A DNA stretch of 64,000 nucleotides from Stutzerimonas urumqiensis (lineage in GTDB: Bacteria > Pseudomonadota > Gammaproteobacteria > Pseudomonadales > Pseudomonadaceae), in the NCBI RefSeq assembly GCF_003640395.1, contig NZ_RBZQ01000011.1:1-64000 (forward strand), written 5' to 3'. Made by a program: the position numbers and the translations under genes. The notes under the pieces were generated by a model, which saw only the letters and a program-made list of their open reading frames with translations, did not search any database and had not been told where the DNA came from. This document shows positions 1-63,882 of the stretch, one piece after another (within the stretch, counting starts at the first letter, position 1; each line of letters opens with the position of its first letter).

Positions 1-500
1 AAAACATTTCGCGCCGTGCAAGGCACAACAGAACGCCGCCGATGCGAGACCGGTGCATTGCTTCGCGAATGCACCCTACGGTTGTCTCGCGTTCGAGACC
101 ACAACAGCTCGGCTTCTGCTTTTCTGCCTCGCTTTCTGGCTTTGCCACACCCAAACCATCAGCCCACACCACTCGCCCCTTCAGCAGGCCGAGCGCAGGT
201 GTCGTGGAAGGGGTTGAGCGGCAGGGATGCCGCGAGAGCCGCGAGGGCCATGGATGGCCCTTCGTGGCGTGCCCTTGGAACGGCACCGGAGCGAGGGAAC
301 CCCGGCAAAGCCGGGGCCGGATGCAGGGGTCGCCTTCTCTTTGGTTACTTTCTCTTGGCGAGACAAGAGAAAGTGACGCGCCGTGCAGGGCGCAATCTGT
401 CGTTCGGGCCGAGGAAAGCGCGACGCCCAAAACGCCAGATCGTAAAGCCAAAAGACAAGAGCATCGCCCGCAAGGACTAGGCGTCCCCCAGGCTCCTACA
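1..500 (+). repeat. multi-hairpin repeat, unit A
   Basis: This is the first of two tandem ~500-base copies of a non-coding repeat that recurs near 54.3-55.85 and 62.2-63.8 kb. In order it holds a GTAG-headed hairpin (52-79, arms GGTGCATT/AATGCACC), a palindromic stem P1 (245-260, arms GGGCCAT/ATGGCCC), stem P2 (300-316, CCCCGGC-AAA-GCCGGGG), stem P3 (347-374, ACTTTCTCTTG, loop GCGAGA, CAAGAGAAAGT), a GCGCC/GGCGC stem near 377-393 and a damaged REP-like end (466-500). Open frames cross it, but none has a credible start or is kept intact between copies. I see no gene here. The left end may lie outside the window. Confidence 0.85.
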
Positions 501-1020
501 AAAACATTTCGCGCCGTGCAAGGCACAACAGAACGCCGCCGATGCGAGACCGGTGCATTGCTTCGCGAATGCACCCTACGGTTGTCTCGCGTTCGAGACC
601 ACAACAGCTCGGCTTCTGCTTTTCTGCTTCGCTTTCTGGCTTTTCCCACCCAAACCATCAAGCCACACAAATTCGCCCCGTCAGCAGGCCGAGCGCAGGT
701 GCCGTGGAAGGGGTCGAGCGGCAGGGATGCCGCGAGAGCCGCGAGGGCCATGGATGGCCCTTCGTGGCGTGCCCCTGGAACGGCACCGGAGCGAGGGAAC
801 CCCGGCAAAGCCGGGGCCGGATGCAGGGGCAAGCGTTTTTGCTTACTTTTTTCGCGACTGAAAAAAGTGAGGCGCCGTGCAAGGCGCAATCTGTAGGTCG
901 GGCCGACGAAAGCGCGGCGTCCAAAACTCCCGATCGTGAAGCCAAAATACAAAAGCATCGCCCGCAAGCGGGCTCCTACAGTCTTTCAAGCTTTCACGCC
1001 GTGCAGGGGCAATCTGTAGT
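501..1020 (+). repeat. multi-hairpin repeat, unit B
   Basis: This is the second tandem copy and is nearly identical to unit A over its first ~330 bases. It then differs at stem P3 (845-868), where the arms are ACTTTTTTC and GAAAAAAGT around a GCGACT loop. The arm sequence has changed but pairing is kept. P1 lies at 745-760 and P2 at 800-816. The unit ends with an intact REP hairpin (958-979, GCCCGC-AA-GCGGGC followed by TCCTAC). It stops about 70 bases before the ubiC start. No gene is visible. Confidence 0.85.
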
Positions 1021-1040
1021 CCGAAACGCGGAAAGTGCGG

Positions 1041-1069
1041 GTCAAAAATACCCGTGTACACCCTATGCT
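1041..1069 (+). promoter_or_regulatory. putative ubiC promoter
   Basis: A -10-like TATGCT at 1064-1069 lies 17 bases after a weak -35-like GTCAAA (1041-1046), just upstream of the ubiC ATG at 1092. It falls between the repeat unit and the gene. This is inference from spacing and motif only. Confidence 0.35.
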
Positions 1070-51508: not shown

Positions 51509-51639
51509 TCGAGAGGCCCAAAAGGCCTTTCGATGCTCCTTGTTGTGTTAAGTGTTGGCAGATCTCTGGACCCCGCCCTAGCGGTCCGGACTTGGACCTC
51601 GAACTTCCCCCTCCCCCAATGAAGTTCGAGGTTTTTTTT
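51509..51639 (+). ncRNA. ersA: ErsA-like small RNA (Spot 42 locus)
   Basis: The predicted transcript of about 131 bases runs from the AlgU-type promoter to a strong terminator (51596-51639). It has a 5' hairpin (GAGAGGCC/GGCCTTTC, near 51511-51531), a middle unpaired stretch, a GGACC/GGTCC hairpin rich in C (51568-51587) and C-tracts in the terminator loop. Position just after polA, length near the 132 bases known for ErsA, promoter type and C-rich loops all match P. aeruginosa ErsA. Exposed C-tracts probably pair with G-rich ribosome sites. The 5' end is predicted only. Confidence 0.72.
51596..51639 (+). terminator. intrinsic terminator of the sRNA
   Basis: A perfect 12-pair stem (ACCTCGAACTTC at 51596-51607 and its complement at 51621-51632) has a 13-base C-rich loop and is followed by eight T. 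This is the clearest intrinsic terminator in the window. Confidence 0.9.
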
Positions 51640-51662
51640 CGTCTGCGCGAAAGGCTCCGCCG

Positions 51663-54329: not shown

Positions 54330-55850
54330 GGCAGTACCGGGCCTGGTGGGCAGGTTGCGCCCTGCACGGCGCGAAAGCTTTGCAGGTACGTAGGAGCCGG
54401 CTTGCTGGCGATGCTTTTGCTTTCATTCTCGGCGTCTCGCTCAGGTGTTTCGAACGCCACGCTTTCCTCGGCCCGGCCTACAGGTTGCGCCTTGCACGGC
54501 GCGGAATGCTGGGATGCACCGTAGGAGCCCGCTTGCGGGCGATGCTCTTGTCTTTTGGCTTCACGATCTGGGGTTTTGGACGCCGCGCTTTCCGCGGCCC
54601 GAACTACCGATTGTGCCTTGCACGGCGCGAAAGCTTGCAGGTCCGTAGGAGCCAGCTTGCTGGCGAAGCTTTTGCTTTCATTCTCGGCGTCTCGCTCAGG
54701 CGTTTTGAACGCCGCGCTTTCCTCGGCCCGACCTACAGGTTGCGCCTTGCACGGCGCGTCACTTTTGCCAATCGCGGCAAAAATAACCAAAACCGCTTGC
54801 CCCTGCATCCGGCCCCGGCTTTGCCGGGGTTCCCTCGCTCCGGTGCCGTTCCAGGGGCGCGCCACGAAGGGCCATCCATGGCCCTCGCGGCTCTCGCGGC
54901 GTCCCTGCCGCTCAACCCCTTCCACGACACCTGCGCTCAGCCTGCTGACGGGGCGAGTGGTGTGGGCTGATGGTTTGGGTGTGAAGAGCAAGAAGCAAAG
55001 CAGAAAAAGAGAAAGCGCAGCTGTTGTGGTATCGAATGGGAGACAACCGTAGGGTGCATTCGCGAAGCAATGCACCGATTCGTATCGGCGGCGTCCCCGG
55101 CGGATTGTTCGCTTCGCTCCTGAATCCGCCTTACGTCCTCCAAGCCCACGGACTAGGCCTGTCACCGAACCGCCACCACCGTAGGGTGGAAAACCGCAAC
55201 GCGTTTTCCACCGCTTGCACGGCGATGAGACCTTTACCTGGCCGCCCCATGTTGTGCCCAACCGGCGCGTGCTCAAAATTAGGCCACTACAGGCTTTTAA
55301 TTTCGCCTTGCACCTCACTCCCAGACCACTCGAACCAACCCCCTTTCATCCGGCCGAACGCAGGCGTTGCGCAGGGGGACGCGAGGCAGGACGCCGAGCG
55401 AGGCGCGGCGGGACAGGGACGTCCCGTCGTGACGTGCCCCCGGAGCGGCGCCGGAGTGAGGGAAGTCTTCGCACAGCGAAGACCCGGATGATGGGGTCGC
55501 CTTCTCTTTGGTTACTTTCTCTTGGCGAAACAAGAGAAAGTGACGCGCCGTGCAAGGCGCAACCTGTAGGCCGGGCCAAGGAAAGCGCGGCGCCCGAAAC
55601 TCCAGACCGCGAAGCCAAAAGACAAAAGCATCGCCCGCAAGCGGGCTCCTACATACGATCCAAAATTCCGGCGCCGTGCAAGACGCAAGCTGTAGGCCGG
55701 GCCGAGGAAAGTGCGGCGTCCATAACCCCAAATCACGAAGCAAAAAGCAAAAGCTTCGCCCGCAAGCGGGCTCCTACAAAAGGCAGCTAAATTCAGCGTC
55801 CAAACGCGCCGTGCAAGGCGCAATCTGTAGGCCGGGCCGAGGAACGTGGC
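54330..55850. repeat. composite mirror-image repeat, copy 1 (1.5 kb, no genes)
   Basis: The left arm (to about 55000) is in reverse orientation relative to units A and B, the right arm (from about 55200) in forward orientation. Left arm: three ~127-base tandem units starting near 54357, 54487 and 54614, each with a REP (54390, 54521, 54645), then P3 (54761-54784, one mismatch), P2 (54813-54829) and P1 (54869-54884). The centre holds three GTAG hairpins (55049-55076, 55099-55134, 55181-55212). Right arm: P1 variant GGGACGTCCC (55416-55425), P2 variant GTCTTCGC/GCGAAGAC (55465-55483), P3 (55514-55541) and ~126-base units with REPs at 55631 and 55755. No gene is visible. It splits the DUF2388 set. 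Confidence 0.85.
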
Positions 55851-55968
55851 GCTCGAAGCTCCTCCGCGCCAAGACAAGCGCGGCAAGCGCATTCCCGGCC
55901 GACACCGGTCCATCGCCAGGCTCATGGCCTCACGACGGACCCGCGCCACGCCTACCGCGGTACCGCCC

Positions 55969-62195: not shown

Positions 62196-62269
62196 TAGCC
62201 AGCCGAGGGCTGGGCATGGAAAGGCGGCGTTAGACGCCGCGCTTTCTTCGGCCCGGCCTTCAGGTTGCG

Positions 62270-62646
62270 CCCTGCACGGCGCGGAGTGCTGGGATGCACC
62301 GTAGGAGCCCGCTTGCGGGCGAAGCTTTTGTTTTTTGGCTTCGTGATCTGGGGTTTTGGACGCCGCGCTTTCCTCGGCCCGAACTACCGATTGCGCCTTG
62401 CACGGCGCGGAATGCTGGGATGCGCCGTAGGAGCCCGCTTGCGGGCGAAGCTTTTGTTTTTTGGCTTCGTGATCTGGGGTTTTGGACGCCGCGCTTCCCT
62501 CGGCCCGAACTACCGATTGCGCCTTGCACGGCGCGGAATGCTGGGATGCGCCGTAGGAGCCCGCTTGCGGGCGAAGCTTTTGTTTTTTGGCTTCACGATC
62601 TGGGGTTTTGGACGCCGCGCTTTCCTCGGCCCGAACTACCGATTGC
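62270..62646 (-). repeat. three tandem ~126-base REP-bearing units
   Basis: Units begin at 62270, 62395 and 62521 (spacing 125 and 126 bases); a fourth start at 62647 leads into the P3 stem. Each holds GTAGGAGCCCGC-TT-GCGGGCGAA and a GCGCC/GGCGC stem. Units 2 and 3 are almost identical, implying recent amplification. Confidence 0.85.
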
Positions 62647-62904
62647 GCCTTGCACGGCGCGTCACTTTTGCCAATCGCGGCAAAAGTAACCAAAACCGCT
62701 TGCCCCTGCATCCGGCCCCGGCTTCGCCGGGGTCCCCTCGCTCCGGTGCGGTTCCAGGGGCACGCCACGAAGGGCCATCCATGGCCCTCGCGGCTCTCGC
62801 GGCATCCCTGCCGCTCAACCCCCTCCACGACACCTGCGCTCGGCCTGCTGAAGGGGCGAATTGGTGTGGCCTGAGAGTTTGGGTGGGAAAAGCCAGAGAG
62901 CGAA

Positions 62905-62968
62905 GCAGAAAAGCAGAAAAGCAGAAAAGCAGAAAAGCAGAAAAGCAGAAAAGCAGAAAAGCAGAAAA
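62905..62968. repeat. 8-base minisatellite, 8 copies
   Basis: GCAGAAAA is repeated eight times without interruption. The matching place in copy 1 (near 54985-55015) has only irregular AGCAGAAAAAGAG-like sequence, and units A and B show CTTCTGCTTTTCTGC. Copy number is therefore variable between loci. Confidence 0.9.
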
Positions 62969-63882
62969 GCAAAGCTGTTGTGGTCGCGAACGTGAGACAA
63001 CCGTACACGTAGGGTGCATTCGCAAAGCAATGCACCGGTTTCGCATTGGCGGCGTCCCTGGCGGATTGTTCGCTTCGCTCCTGAATCCGCCCCTACATCT
63101 GATGCAGGCTGATGCGGCAATCACTCAAACGTCAGCCACCGTAGGGTGGAAAACCGCAACGCGTTTTCCACCGCTTGCACGGCGATGAAGCCTTTACCTG
63201 GCTGCCCCATGTTGTGCCCAACCGGCACGGGCGCAGGCTTTTGATTTCGCTTGCACCTCACTCTCAGACCACTCGAACCAACCCCCTTTCATCCGGCCGA
63301 ACGCAGGCGTTGCGCAGGGGGACGCGAGGCAGGACGCCGAGCGAGGCGCGGCGGGACAGGACGTCCCGTCGTGACGCGCCCCCGGAGCGGCGCCGGAGTG
63401 AGGGCAGTCTGGCTGCGCAGCAGGCAGACCCGGATGATGGGGTCGCCTTCTCTTTGGTTACTTTCTCTTGGCGAGACAAGAGAAAGTGACGCGCCGTGCA
63501 AGGCGCGATCTGTCGTCCGGGCCGAGGAAAGCGCGGCGTCCATAACCCCAGATCACGAAGCCAAAAAGCAAAAGCATCGCCCGCAAGCGGGCTCCTACAA
63601 ACGACCAAACTTCGGCGTGGTGCAAAGCGCAAGCTGTCGTCCGGGCCAAGGAAAGCGCAGCGTCCGAAACACCAGACCGCGAAGCCAAAGACAAAAGCAT
63701 CGCCCGCAAGCGGGCTCCTACACGCCCAAAATTCCGGCGTCGCGCAAGGCGCAACCGTCGGCCGGACCGAAGAGAACCTGGCGTCCAAACGCTTGAGCGA
63801 GACGCCGGAATCGCAGGCCCCCGCCCCGCGGGTCCAAGGACCCGCACCGTGCAAAAACACAAAACCACCCACCAGGGCGCCG

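Follow-up and report, generated by a model that had tools for sequence, protein, structure and literature searches.

TwoAYGGAY (Rfam RF01731) is an RNA family that, like the element described here, has a three-way junction, two GGA hairpins and a stem with G-A-bearing internal loops. The accessible part of Weinberg et al. (PMC2864571) lists the motif for human gut, gammaproteobacteria and Clostridiales. PMC4333381, in its accessible part, states the tandem GA of the family and makes the proposal, dating from 2014, that it binds CsrA; the corresponding part of a 2025 preprint (PMC11661157) still calls the family ‘relatively unexplored’. The portions of the open-access literature on TwoAYGGAY that were available describe no bench test and no 3′ pseudoknot. 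Dispersed intergenic repeats have been catalogued separately: according to the accessible part of PMC2718517, Pseudomonas fluorescens has R200, with 47 copies of 320 bp in SBW25, and R26, with 20 copies of 352 bp in Pf0-1. The finding reported below joins TwoAYGGAY, dispersed proteobacterial intergenic repeats and nucleic-acid triple helices, three subjects treated apart in the portions of the literature at hand. Triplex pseudoknots are found in telomerase RNA and in the SAM-II and preQ1-II riboswitches, and ENE/MALAT1 are triple helices, which block 3′ exonucleases. To our knowledge, base triples that covary over several steps are rarely visible from sequence alone.

We read the present element, at a probability of about 0.55, as a mobile element, scattered over the genome, with an RNA that is bound by CsrA/RsmA and includes a triplex pseudoknot. 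Beyond the part that Rfam matches, its core adds a hairpin (P2), a putative triplex-type pseudoknot and, downstream, a further hairpin (P4); unlike plain TwoAYGGAY, it is present in many copies per genome, in REP-ended islands. With the sponge RNAs CsrB, RsmX, RsmY and RsmZ it shares paired GGA hairpins of the CsrA/RsmA type. Unlike them it has two hairpins per unit in dispersed, inserted copies, shows no GacA box (typical of RsmX/Y/Z genes) beyond chance, and has no promoter seen in islands 2 and 3 (below). The H-type pseudoknot is common to this core, telomerase RNA, SAM-II and preQ1-II; as in these and in ENE/MALAT1, a pyrimidine strand is expected to run parallel to the purine strand in the major groove. 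It differs from those triplexes in being a bacterial dispersed repeat with no known ligand or telomere role, and its tract offers up to about eight candidate triples, with joint changes of T.A and C.G. Like REP/BIME repeats and their RAYTs, the islands here end in REPs, as beside the genome's own Y1-type transposase gene; unlike REP/BIME, the core is 205 nt long, has its own structure and is found in other families and classes. R200 and R26 could fit the core in size, copy number and intergenic place, a likeness drawn from the accessible description and not from sequence.

The window, by which we mean the whole 64,000-nt stretch of Stutzerimonas urumqiensis DNA that was analysed, contains six cores in three islands. 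Island 1 (1..1050) is cut by the contig start, and repeat depth is 1 at position 1061. It consists of two tandem units with a REP at each 3′ end, the REP of unit 1 carrying an insert. Core 1 (189..395, + strand) is of type A and comprises the TwoAYGGAY domain, P2, the pseudoknot with P3, and P4; core 2 (689..889, +), also of type A, is a tandem copy with a different P3 cassette. Islands 2 (54340..55865) and 3 (62225..63805), delimited by repeat depth, each hold a divergent core pair with REP-bearing tail arrays outside. Core 3 (54740..54939, − strand, type A) forms the left arm and core 4 (55354..55562, +, type B) the right arm of island 2; in island 3 these places are taken by core 5 (62643..62843, −, type A) and core 6 (63298..63510, +, type B; bounds read by eye). 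A prior sequence-only reading of this DNA had described a repeat of ~0.5 kb at 1-1020. The repeat is real, but the part that covaries is a core of ~205 nt (189-395 and 689-889), and its spread is wider than described.

A BLAST search of the source genome with window positions 205-400 gave 45 matches, 41 of them at least 100 bases long. With a second query, and leaving out three partial cores, the genome total is about 44 alignable cores of ~205 nt each, 29 nearest to type A and 15 nearest to type B. Matches were found in 53 of the 56 genomes of a genus sample that includes the source genome, hence in 52 of the 55 others. A pattern scan found the element, among the matches listed, in Pseudomonas, Xanthomonas, Lysobacter, Cupriavidus, Rhizobacter, Methylophilus, Thiobacillus, Psychromonas and others. 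Of 299 genomes sampled evenly across the phylum, 25 contained RF01731, 14 a strict pseudoknot pattern and 12 both; the reversed pseudoknot pattern had one match in that sample. RF01731 is also present in 20 of 148 genomes from the class of an Oscillibacter genome, several of them with many copies.

The fold was worked out on an alignment (A1) of 34 non-redundant rows from one genus. Before it was made, 18 of 104 cores were skipped because they could not be bounded by pattern, and six of the 40 representatives were then excluded for insertions or short length. A1 has seven helices, namely Pa, Pb, P0, P1, P2, P3 and P4: Pa is the outer helix, P0 and P1 are hairpins in a three-way junction, and P2 and P4 are hairpins. 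In core 1 (+ strand) Pa pairs 198-205 with 280-287 and has a GGA/GGA internal loop inside, Pb pairs 209-213 with 272-276, P0 is at 218-233, P1 with loop TGGA at 238-268, P2 at 300..316 and P4, the seventh helix of A1, at 378..393. Standard pairs fill 91.8% of the pair cells, against 80.5% in shuffled data (0 of 500 shuffles reach 91.8%) and 41-53% when partners are slid. Both sides have changed in 27 of 55 pairs. Pa, an 8-bp helix made from the sequence flanking P1 and P2, has changes on both sides in all eight pairs and 97.8% of its cells paired.

These results bear on several earlier statements. P3 had been placed at 347, 845, 55514, 62664 and 63460, P2 at 300, 800, 55465, 62716 and 63407, and P1 at the same relative place in each copy; the stems are there. 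Several independent compensatory changes had also been claimed from the six window copies. In the source genome P3 takes the form of some six intact cassettes of ~50 nt, each comprising the upstream tract and the loop as well, so that the window copies contain few independent events. Loops and flanks were said to stay fixed, and this is only partly so: the flanks of P1 and P2 are the covarying Pa, and the P3 loop changes with a complementary upstream tract. That loop begins with GCGA throughout the window, as had been noted, but genome-wide CCCAGA and CCGCGCGG loops also occur.

Covariation was assessed against a null that preserves phylogeny, a home-made stand-in for R-scape in which parsimony substitutions are moved randomly over the tree and all column pairs are scored. 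A first run on 73 genus sequences, many of them source-genome copies, with about three substitutions per column, gave 0 significant pairs. The sequence-only reading had named this outcome as refuting it, but two better-spread alignments overturned the result. In A1, seven pairs of the 19701 tested reach E<=0.05, and six of the seven belong to the 57 helix pairs. The covariance model derived from A1 had 147 matches in 100 loci; full-length ones come from Pseudomonas, Pseudomaricurvus, Xanthomonas, Lysobacter, Thiobacillus and Methylophilus, among others. In the resulting cross-genus alignment A2, of which 61 of the 147 rows were taken into the test, 20 pairs reach E<=0.05; 19 lie within the 55-pair structure and one extends the outer helix. 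A2 was fitted to the model structure and therefore leans towards it, whereas A1 was not fitted. Over all cross-genus rows, 54 of the 55 pairs have changes on both sides. With significant pairs falling in helices so consistently, selection of the core for single-strand pairing, as had been proposed, is strongly supported.

Which strand and which molecule are selected can be addressed in two ways. The minimum-free-energy RNA fold of window 189-400, computed with no comparative input, has the same helices, pseudoknot pairing S1 aside; the sense fold is at -118.2 kcal/mol (z -6.3) and the antisense fold at -94.7 kcal/mol (z -4.8). In the alignment, G-U cells outnumber A-C cells by 105 to 19, and by 44 to 1 in Pa alone, which indicates that it is the sense strand that is selected to pair with itself, in the simplest case as RNA. 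The main rival has the same fold act as single-stranded DNA: a transposase, for instance the genome's RAYT, would recognise the hairpins and an H-DNA-like triplex of foldback or REP-like transposable islands, with no RNA function. The G-U excess is what RNA would be expected to show, and that the acting molecule is RNA we consider probable.

By sequence and fold the 5′ half (TwoAYGGAY domain of core 1, 198..287, + strand) is the named Rfam family TwoAYGGAY. The match emerged under permissive Rfam thresholds, at 211-274 with 35.6 bits and at 711-774 with 37.9 bits, both below the gathering score of 43; two other copies in the source genome reach 43.6, and relatives up to 45.3. It spans model positions 45-113, which are the three-way junction with both hairpins, and two AYGGAY-type hairpin loops are present in that junction. 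In the type A cores of the window P1 reads ATGGAT and P0 AGGGAT, so that P0 is not strictly AYGGAY; in most relatives of the genus P0 reads ATGGAT. GNA/GGA internal loops stand on both sides of Pa, their G and A being invariant in 34 sequences. RF01731 belongs to clan CL00106, as does drum RNA. At the gathering score the whole window has ErsA as its sole match, the ErsA (Pseudomon-1) sRNA gene lying at 51533-51648 with 123.4 bits and pointing to Pseudomonadaceae. Some Clostridial TwoAYGGAY copies (L293, L301, L304, L313) resemble long, MITE-like hairpin elements with the junction at the tip, and their genomes have 1 to 17 scored copies each. No pseudoknot, and neither P2 nor P4, was seen downstream of Clostridial TwoAYGGAY in the correctly placed copies that were read. 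The 3′ half matches no family of Rfam 15; the remark that no named element has this layout therefore stands for that half, within Rfam 15, and falls for the 5′ half.

A literature search with the P3 motif returned, among the matches listed, unrelated items throughout. The sequences indicate that P3 is one helix of an H-type pseudoknot (330..377 in core 1, + strand), in which S1 pairs an upstream stretch with the P3 loop. From 5′ to 3′ the order is an S1 stretch complementary to the P3 loop, the pyrimidine tract L1, and P3. In core 1, S1a is at 330-334, L1, the putative third strand, at 335-342, P3 (S2 of the pseudoknot) at 344-357 with 364-377, and S1b, inside the P3 loop, at 358-363. The pairing score of S1 is 9.05, against 7.39 in 300 shuffles (sd 0.16, max 7.81), and no individual S1 column pair is significant in the cross-genus covariation test.

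In an H-type pseudoknot L1 runs in the major groove of P3, parallel to the purine strand, and a Hoogsteen copy of that strand is then expected in L1. Such a copy is found. L1 repeats the purine strand of P3 in parallel, with 165 of 248 cells being T.A or C.G, while shuffled data have a mean of 85 and a maximum of 109 (2000 shuffles); the count uses only Watson-Crick P3 pairs, from 66 distinct tracts in many genera, and leaves out nine hairpins with fewer than two further pairs. Of the 138 cells in which the purine strand has A, 122 have T in the loop, and of the 51 in which it has G, 43 have C. Admitting G-U pairs gives a figure of 166 of 278, excluding hairpins with fewer than two further pairs and the two of 166 that have no G before the helix. 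Six further registers were compared with register 0, and all did worse. That the loop tract arose as a direct repeat, by strand swap, was tested and rejected in favour of a mirror repeat: set against the best-fitting of nine direct-repeat offsets, the mirror repeat wins in 44 of 58 tracts, ties in 14 and loses in 0, and this preference is what a pyrimidine-motif triple helix predicts. A clear mirror case is TTCTTTTT beside AAGAAAAA, and two Psychromonas copies (L149 and L160) differ by a change from a T.A to a C.G triple.

At a T interruption of the purine strand, G is the base that a DNA triplex prefers. Here G stands opposite T in 5 of 12 cells without G-U pairs and in 16 of 29 with them, and two of these G lie inside long tracts, one in L101 of Rhizobacter and one in L143. 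The loop base opposite C follows no clear rule (C 23, T 14, G 9, A 1). This weakness of the rule where G should face T lowered our estimate slightly; from the copying of the purine strand it still seems likely that L1 forms a triplex with P3. The mirror repeat, though selected, could have a cause other than a triplex. Pyrimidine-motif triplexes are well known for DNA, which counts for the single-stranded DNA reading with its H-DNA-like triplex.

The two hairpins of the 5′ half direct attention to CsrA. CsrA is present in all 25 of the RF01731-bearing genomes, against 180 of 299 in the sample overall. Upstream of the pseudoknot, 13 of 19 genomes with CsrA and 1 of 17 without it have a hairpin with a GGA loop (Fisher p 1.4e-4), by a loose criterion that admits any loop of 4-7 nt on at least five pairs; 36 of 43 named genomes were judged, the rest having too little upstream sequence. 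Both associations are confounded by descent, which the presence of CsrA follows; 14 of the 17 CsrA-less genomes are Betaproteobacteria by name. A strict rule is hard to reconcile with the lack of GGA loops in six of the 19 genomes that have CsrA, and one of the 13 positive genomes (L147) has a GGA loop unlike the TwoAYGGAY hairpin. Thiobacillus copies have the closed junction with two hairpins and other loops. As the same scaffold occurs with non-GGA loops in CsrA-less Betaproteobacteria, CsrA binding cannot be the whole of its function. At least two GGA hairpins of CANGGANG type are present per core, and their form makes it rather likely that the core RNA binds CsrA/RsmA. The simplest reading is of one scaffold whose loops would serve as CsrA sites wherever CsrA exists. 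Two other arrangements gained no support. For a GacA-controlled sRNA, the window has seven GacA-box matches at three mismatches against 3.6 expected, five of the seven inside a REP, which is not beyond chance; for a promoter-driven gene, islands 2 and 3 showed nothing resembling a sigma-70 promoter.

By repeat depth the edges of the islands are sharp. Island 2 sits between two paralogous genes of a tandem family. At the match to its right-hand gene no core was found in the loci of 29 relatives examined, out of 55 with a match, the paralogues lying close together; given the tandem family, the exact gap may differ between species. Around the match to the left-hand gene of island 3 there was likewise no core in the loci of 29 relatives examined, out of 54 with a match. 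Occupied and empty sites are thus seen for islands 2 and 3. Exact ends and a target-site duplication could not be placed because the relatives are too diverged, their flanks being mostly about 70-79% identical. A phage or plasmid carrier was discarded as an explanation, plasmids giving two short partial matches and phages none at E<=0.001. The tail arrays have a unit of ~115-125 nt with a P4-like hairpin at its start and a REP at its end (54400-54760, 55550-55860 and 62230-62650).

Several features of the islands speak for the single-stranded DNA reading. They are insertions, mostly inverted pairs, and their tail-array REPs are of the type that flanks the genome's single Y1-type transposase gene; the negative promoter result for islands 2 and 3 would suit a DNA element as well. 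The 3.3 kb read around that transposase gene contain no core. Y1 ends (IS200/RAYT-type) are recognised on one strand and in direct order, whereas the arms here are inverted. Close core neighbours are minus-plus, that is divergent, in 56 of 68 cases, plus-minus in one and on the same strand in 11, and this divergent pairing is accounted for by neither the RNA nor the single-stranded DNA reading. The two GGA hairpins, moreover, go with CsrA, an RNA-binding protein, though descent confounds that link. We regard action as single-stranded DNA without any RNA function as unlikely, yet as an explanation to be kept in view.

Less probable again, and improbable on the whole, is regulation in cis, with the RNA serving as the leader of a neighbouring gene or as part of its 3′ UTR. 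Rfam does type RF01731 as cis-regulatory, but the flanking genes have no constant orientation: 16 islands of the source genome with both sides called (crudely, by open frame and third-position GC) comprise 10 co-directional, 5 convergent and 1 divergent arrangements, and islands 2 and 3 are absent beside the matching genes of the relatives examined. That these are ordinary intergenic repeats whose covariation is only apparent, through gene conversion and whole-cassette exchange, is very improbable, for although P3 does change as whole cassettes in the source genome and the 73-sequence alignment rich in its copies gave no significant pair, the seven (A1) and 20 (A2) significant pairs contradict it and the same model matches Xanthomonas, Lysobacter, Thiobacillus and Methylophilus.

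The preferred reading is thus an inserted, dispersed element with a core of about 205 nt that would be under selection as a folded RNA. Its TwoAYGGAY three-way junction would present the two GGA hairpins, with CsrA/RsmA most likely bound. L1 would lie in the major groove of P3 as part of a pyrimidine-motif triple helix, in a pseudoknot closed by hairpin P4. The RNA, when transcribed (its own promoter was not found; read-through is possible), would titrate RsmA or be guarded by it. By analogy with the ENE/MALAT1 triplexes, the triplex pseudoknot might block 3′ exonucleases, and we offer this 3′-end protection only tentatively. As speculative is a broader view, of a widespread mobile RNA part in which a long-triplex pseudoknot, its triples covarying (T.A with C.G, and G at a T interruption in two long tracts) and acting as a 3′ nuclease block, is combined with interchangeable 5′ domains, a CsrA/RsmA trap in hosts with CsrA and a GGA-less junction in hosts that lack it. 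Were this true, the block would let the RNA of a selfish element persist and dose the CsrA/RsmA network of its host. Should the RNA be made and bound by RsmA, each genome would contain dozens of mobile CsrA/RsmA traps, which would add a new level of control above a global regulator, and the proposal of CsrA binding that Gardner and Eldai made in 2014 would be directly testable in common laboratory strains.

Several smaller features were seen in and around the cores. In one type B core (L045, about 2107-2288) the P3 hairpin is largely missing, with a gap that begins at the pyrimidine tract and extends to the 3′ arm, its surroundings being intact. Near-constant GC-rich inserts of 14-16 nt stand at the tip of P3 (L103, L120, L162, L199 and L070, L164, L214, L271, L282) or of P1 (L055, L067, L070) in different species. 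These tiny insertions are present in single-contig genomes too (G112, G116). Directly upstream of several cores (L083, L087, L126, L157 and window about 62903-62955) there are degenerate tandem repeats with units of 6 or 8 nt, some of which have a string like TTTTGA or TTGATC close to the end; a role for the hexamer-like tracts as a telomerase-like template was considered and set aside. A 13-nt string, GGACTAGGCGTCC, recurs in the repeats (window 474-486, L065, L067, L208); it splits a REP hairpin in the window and adjoins hairpin P1 in L065.
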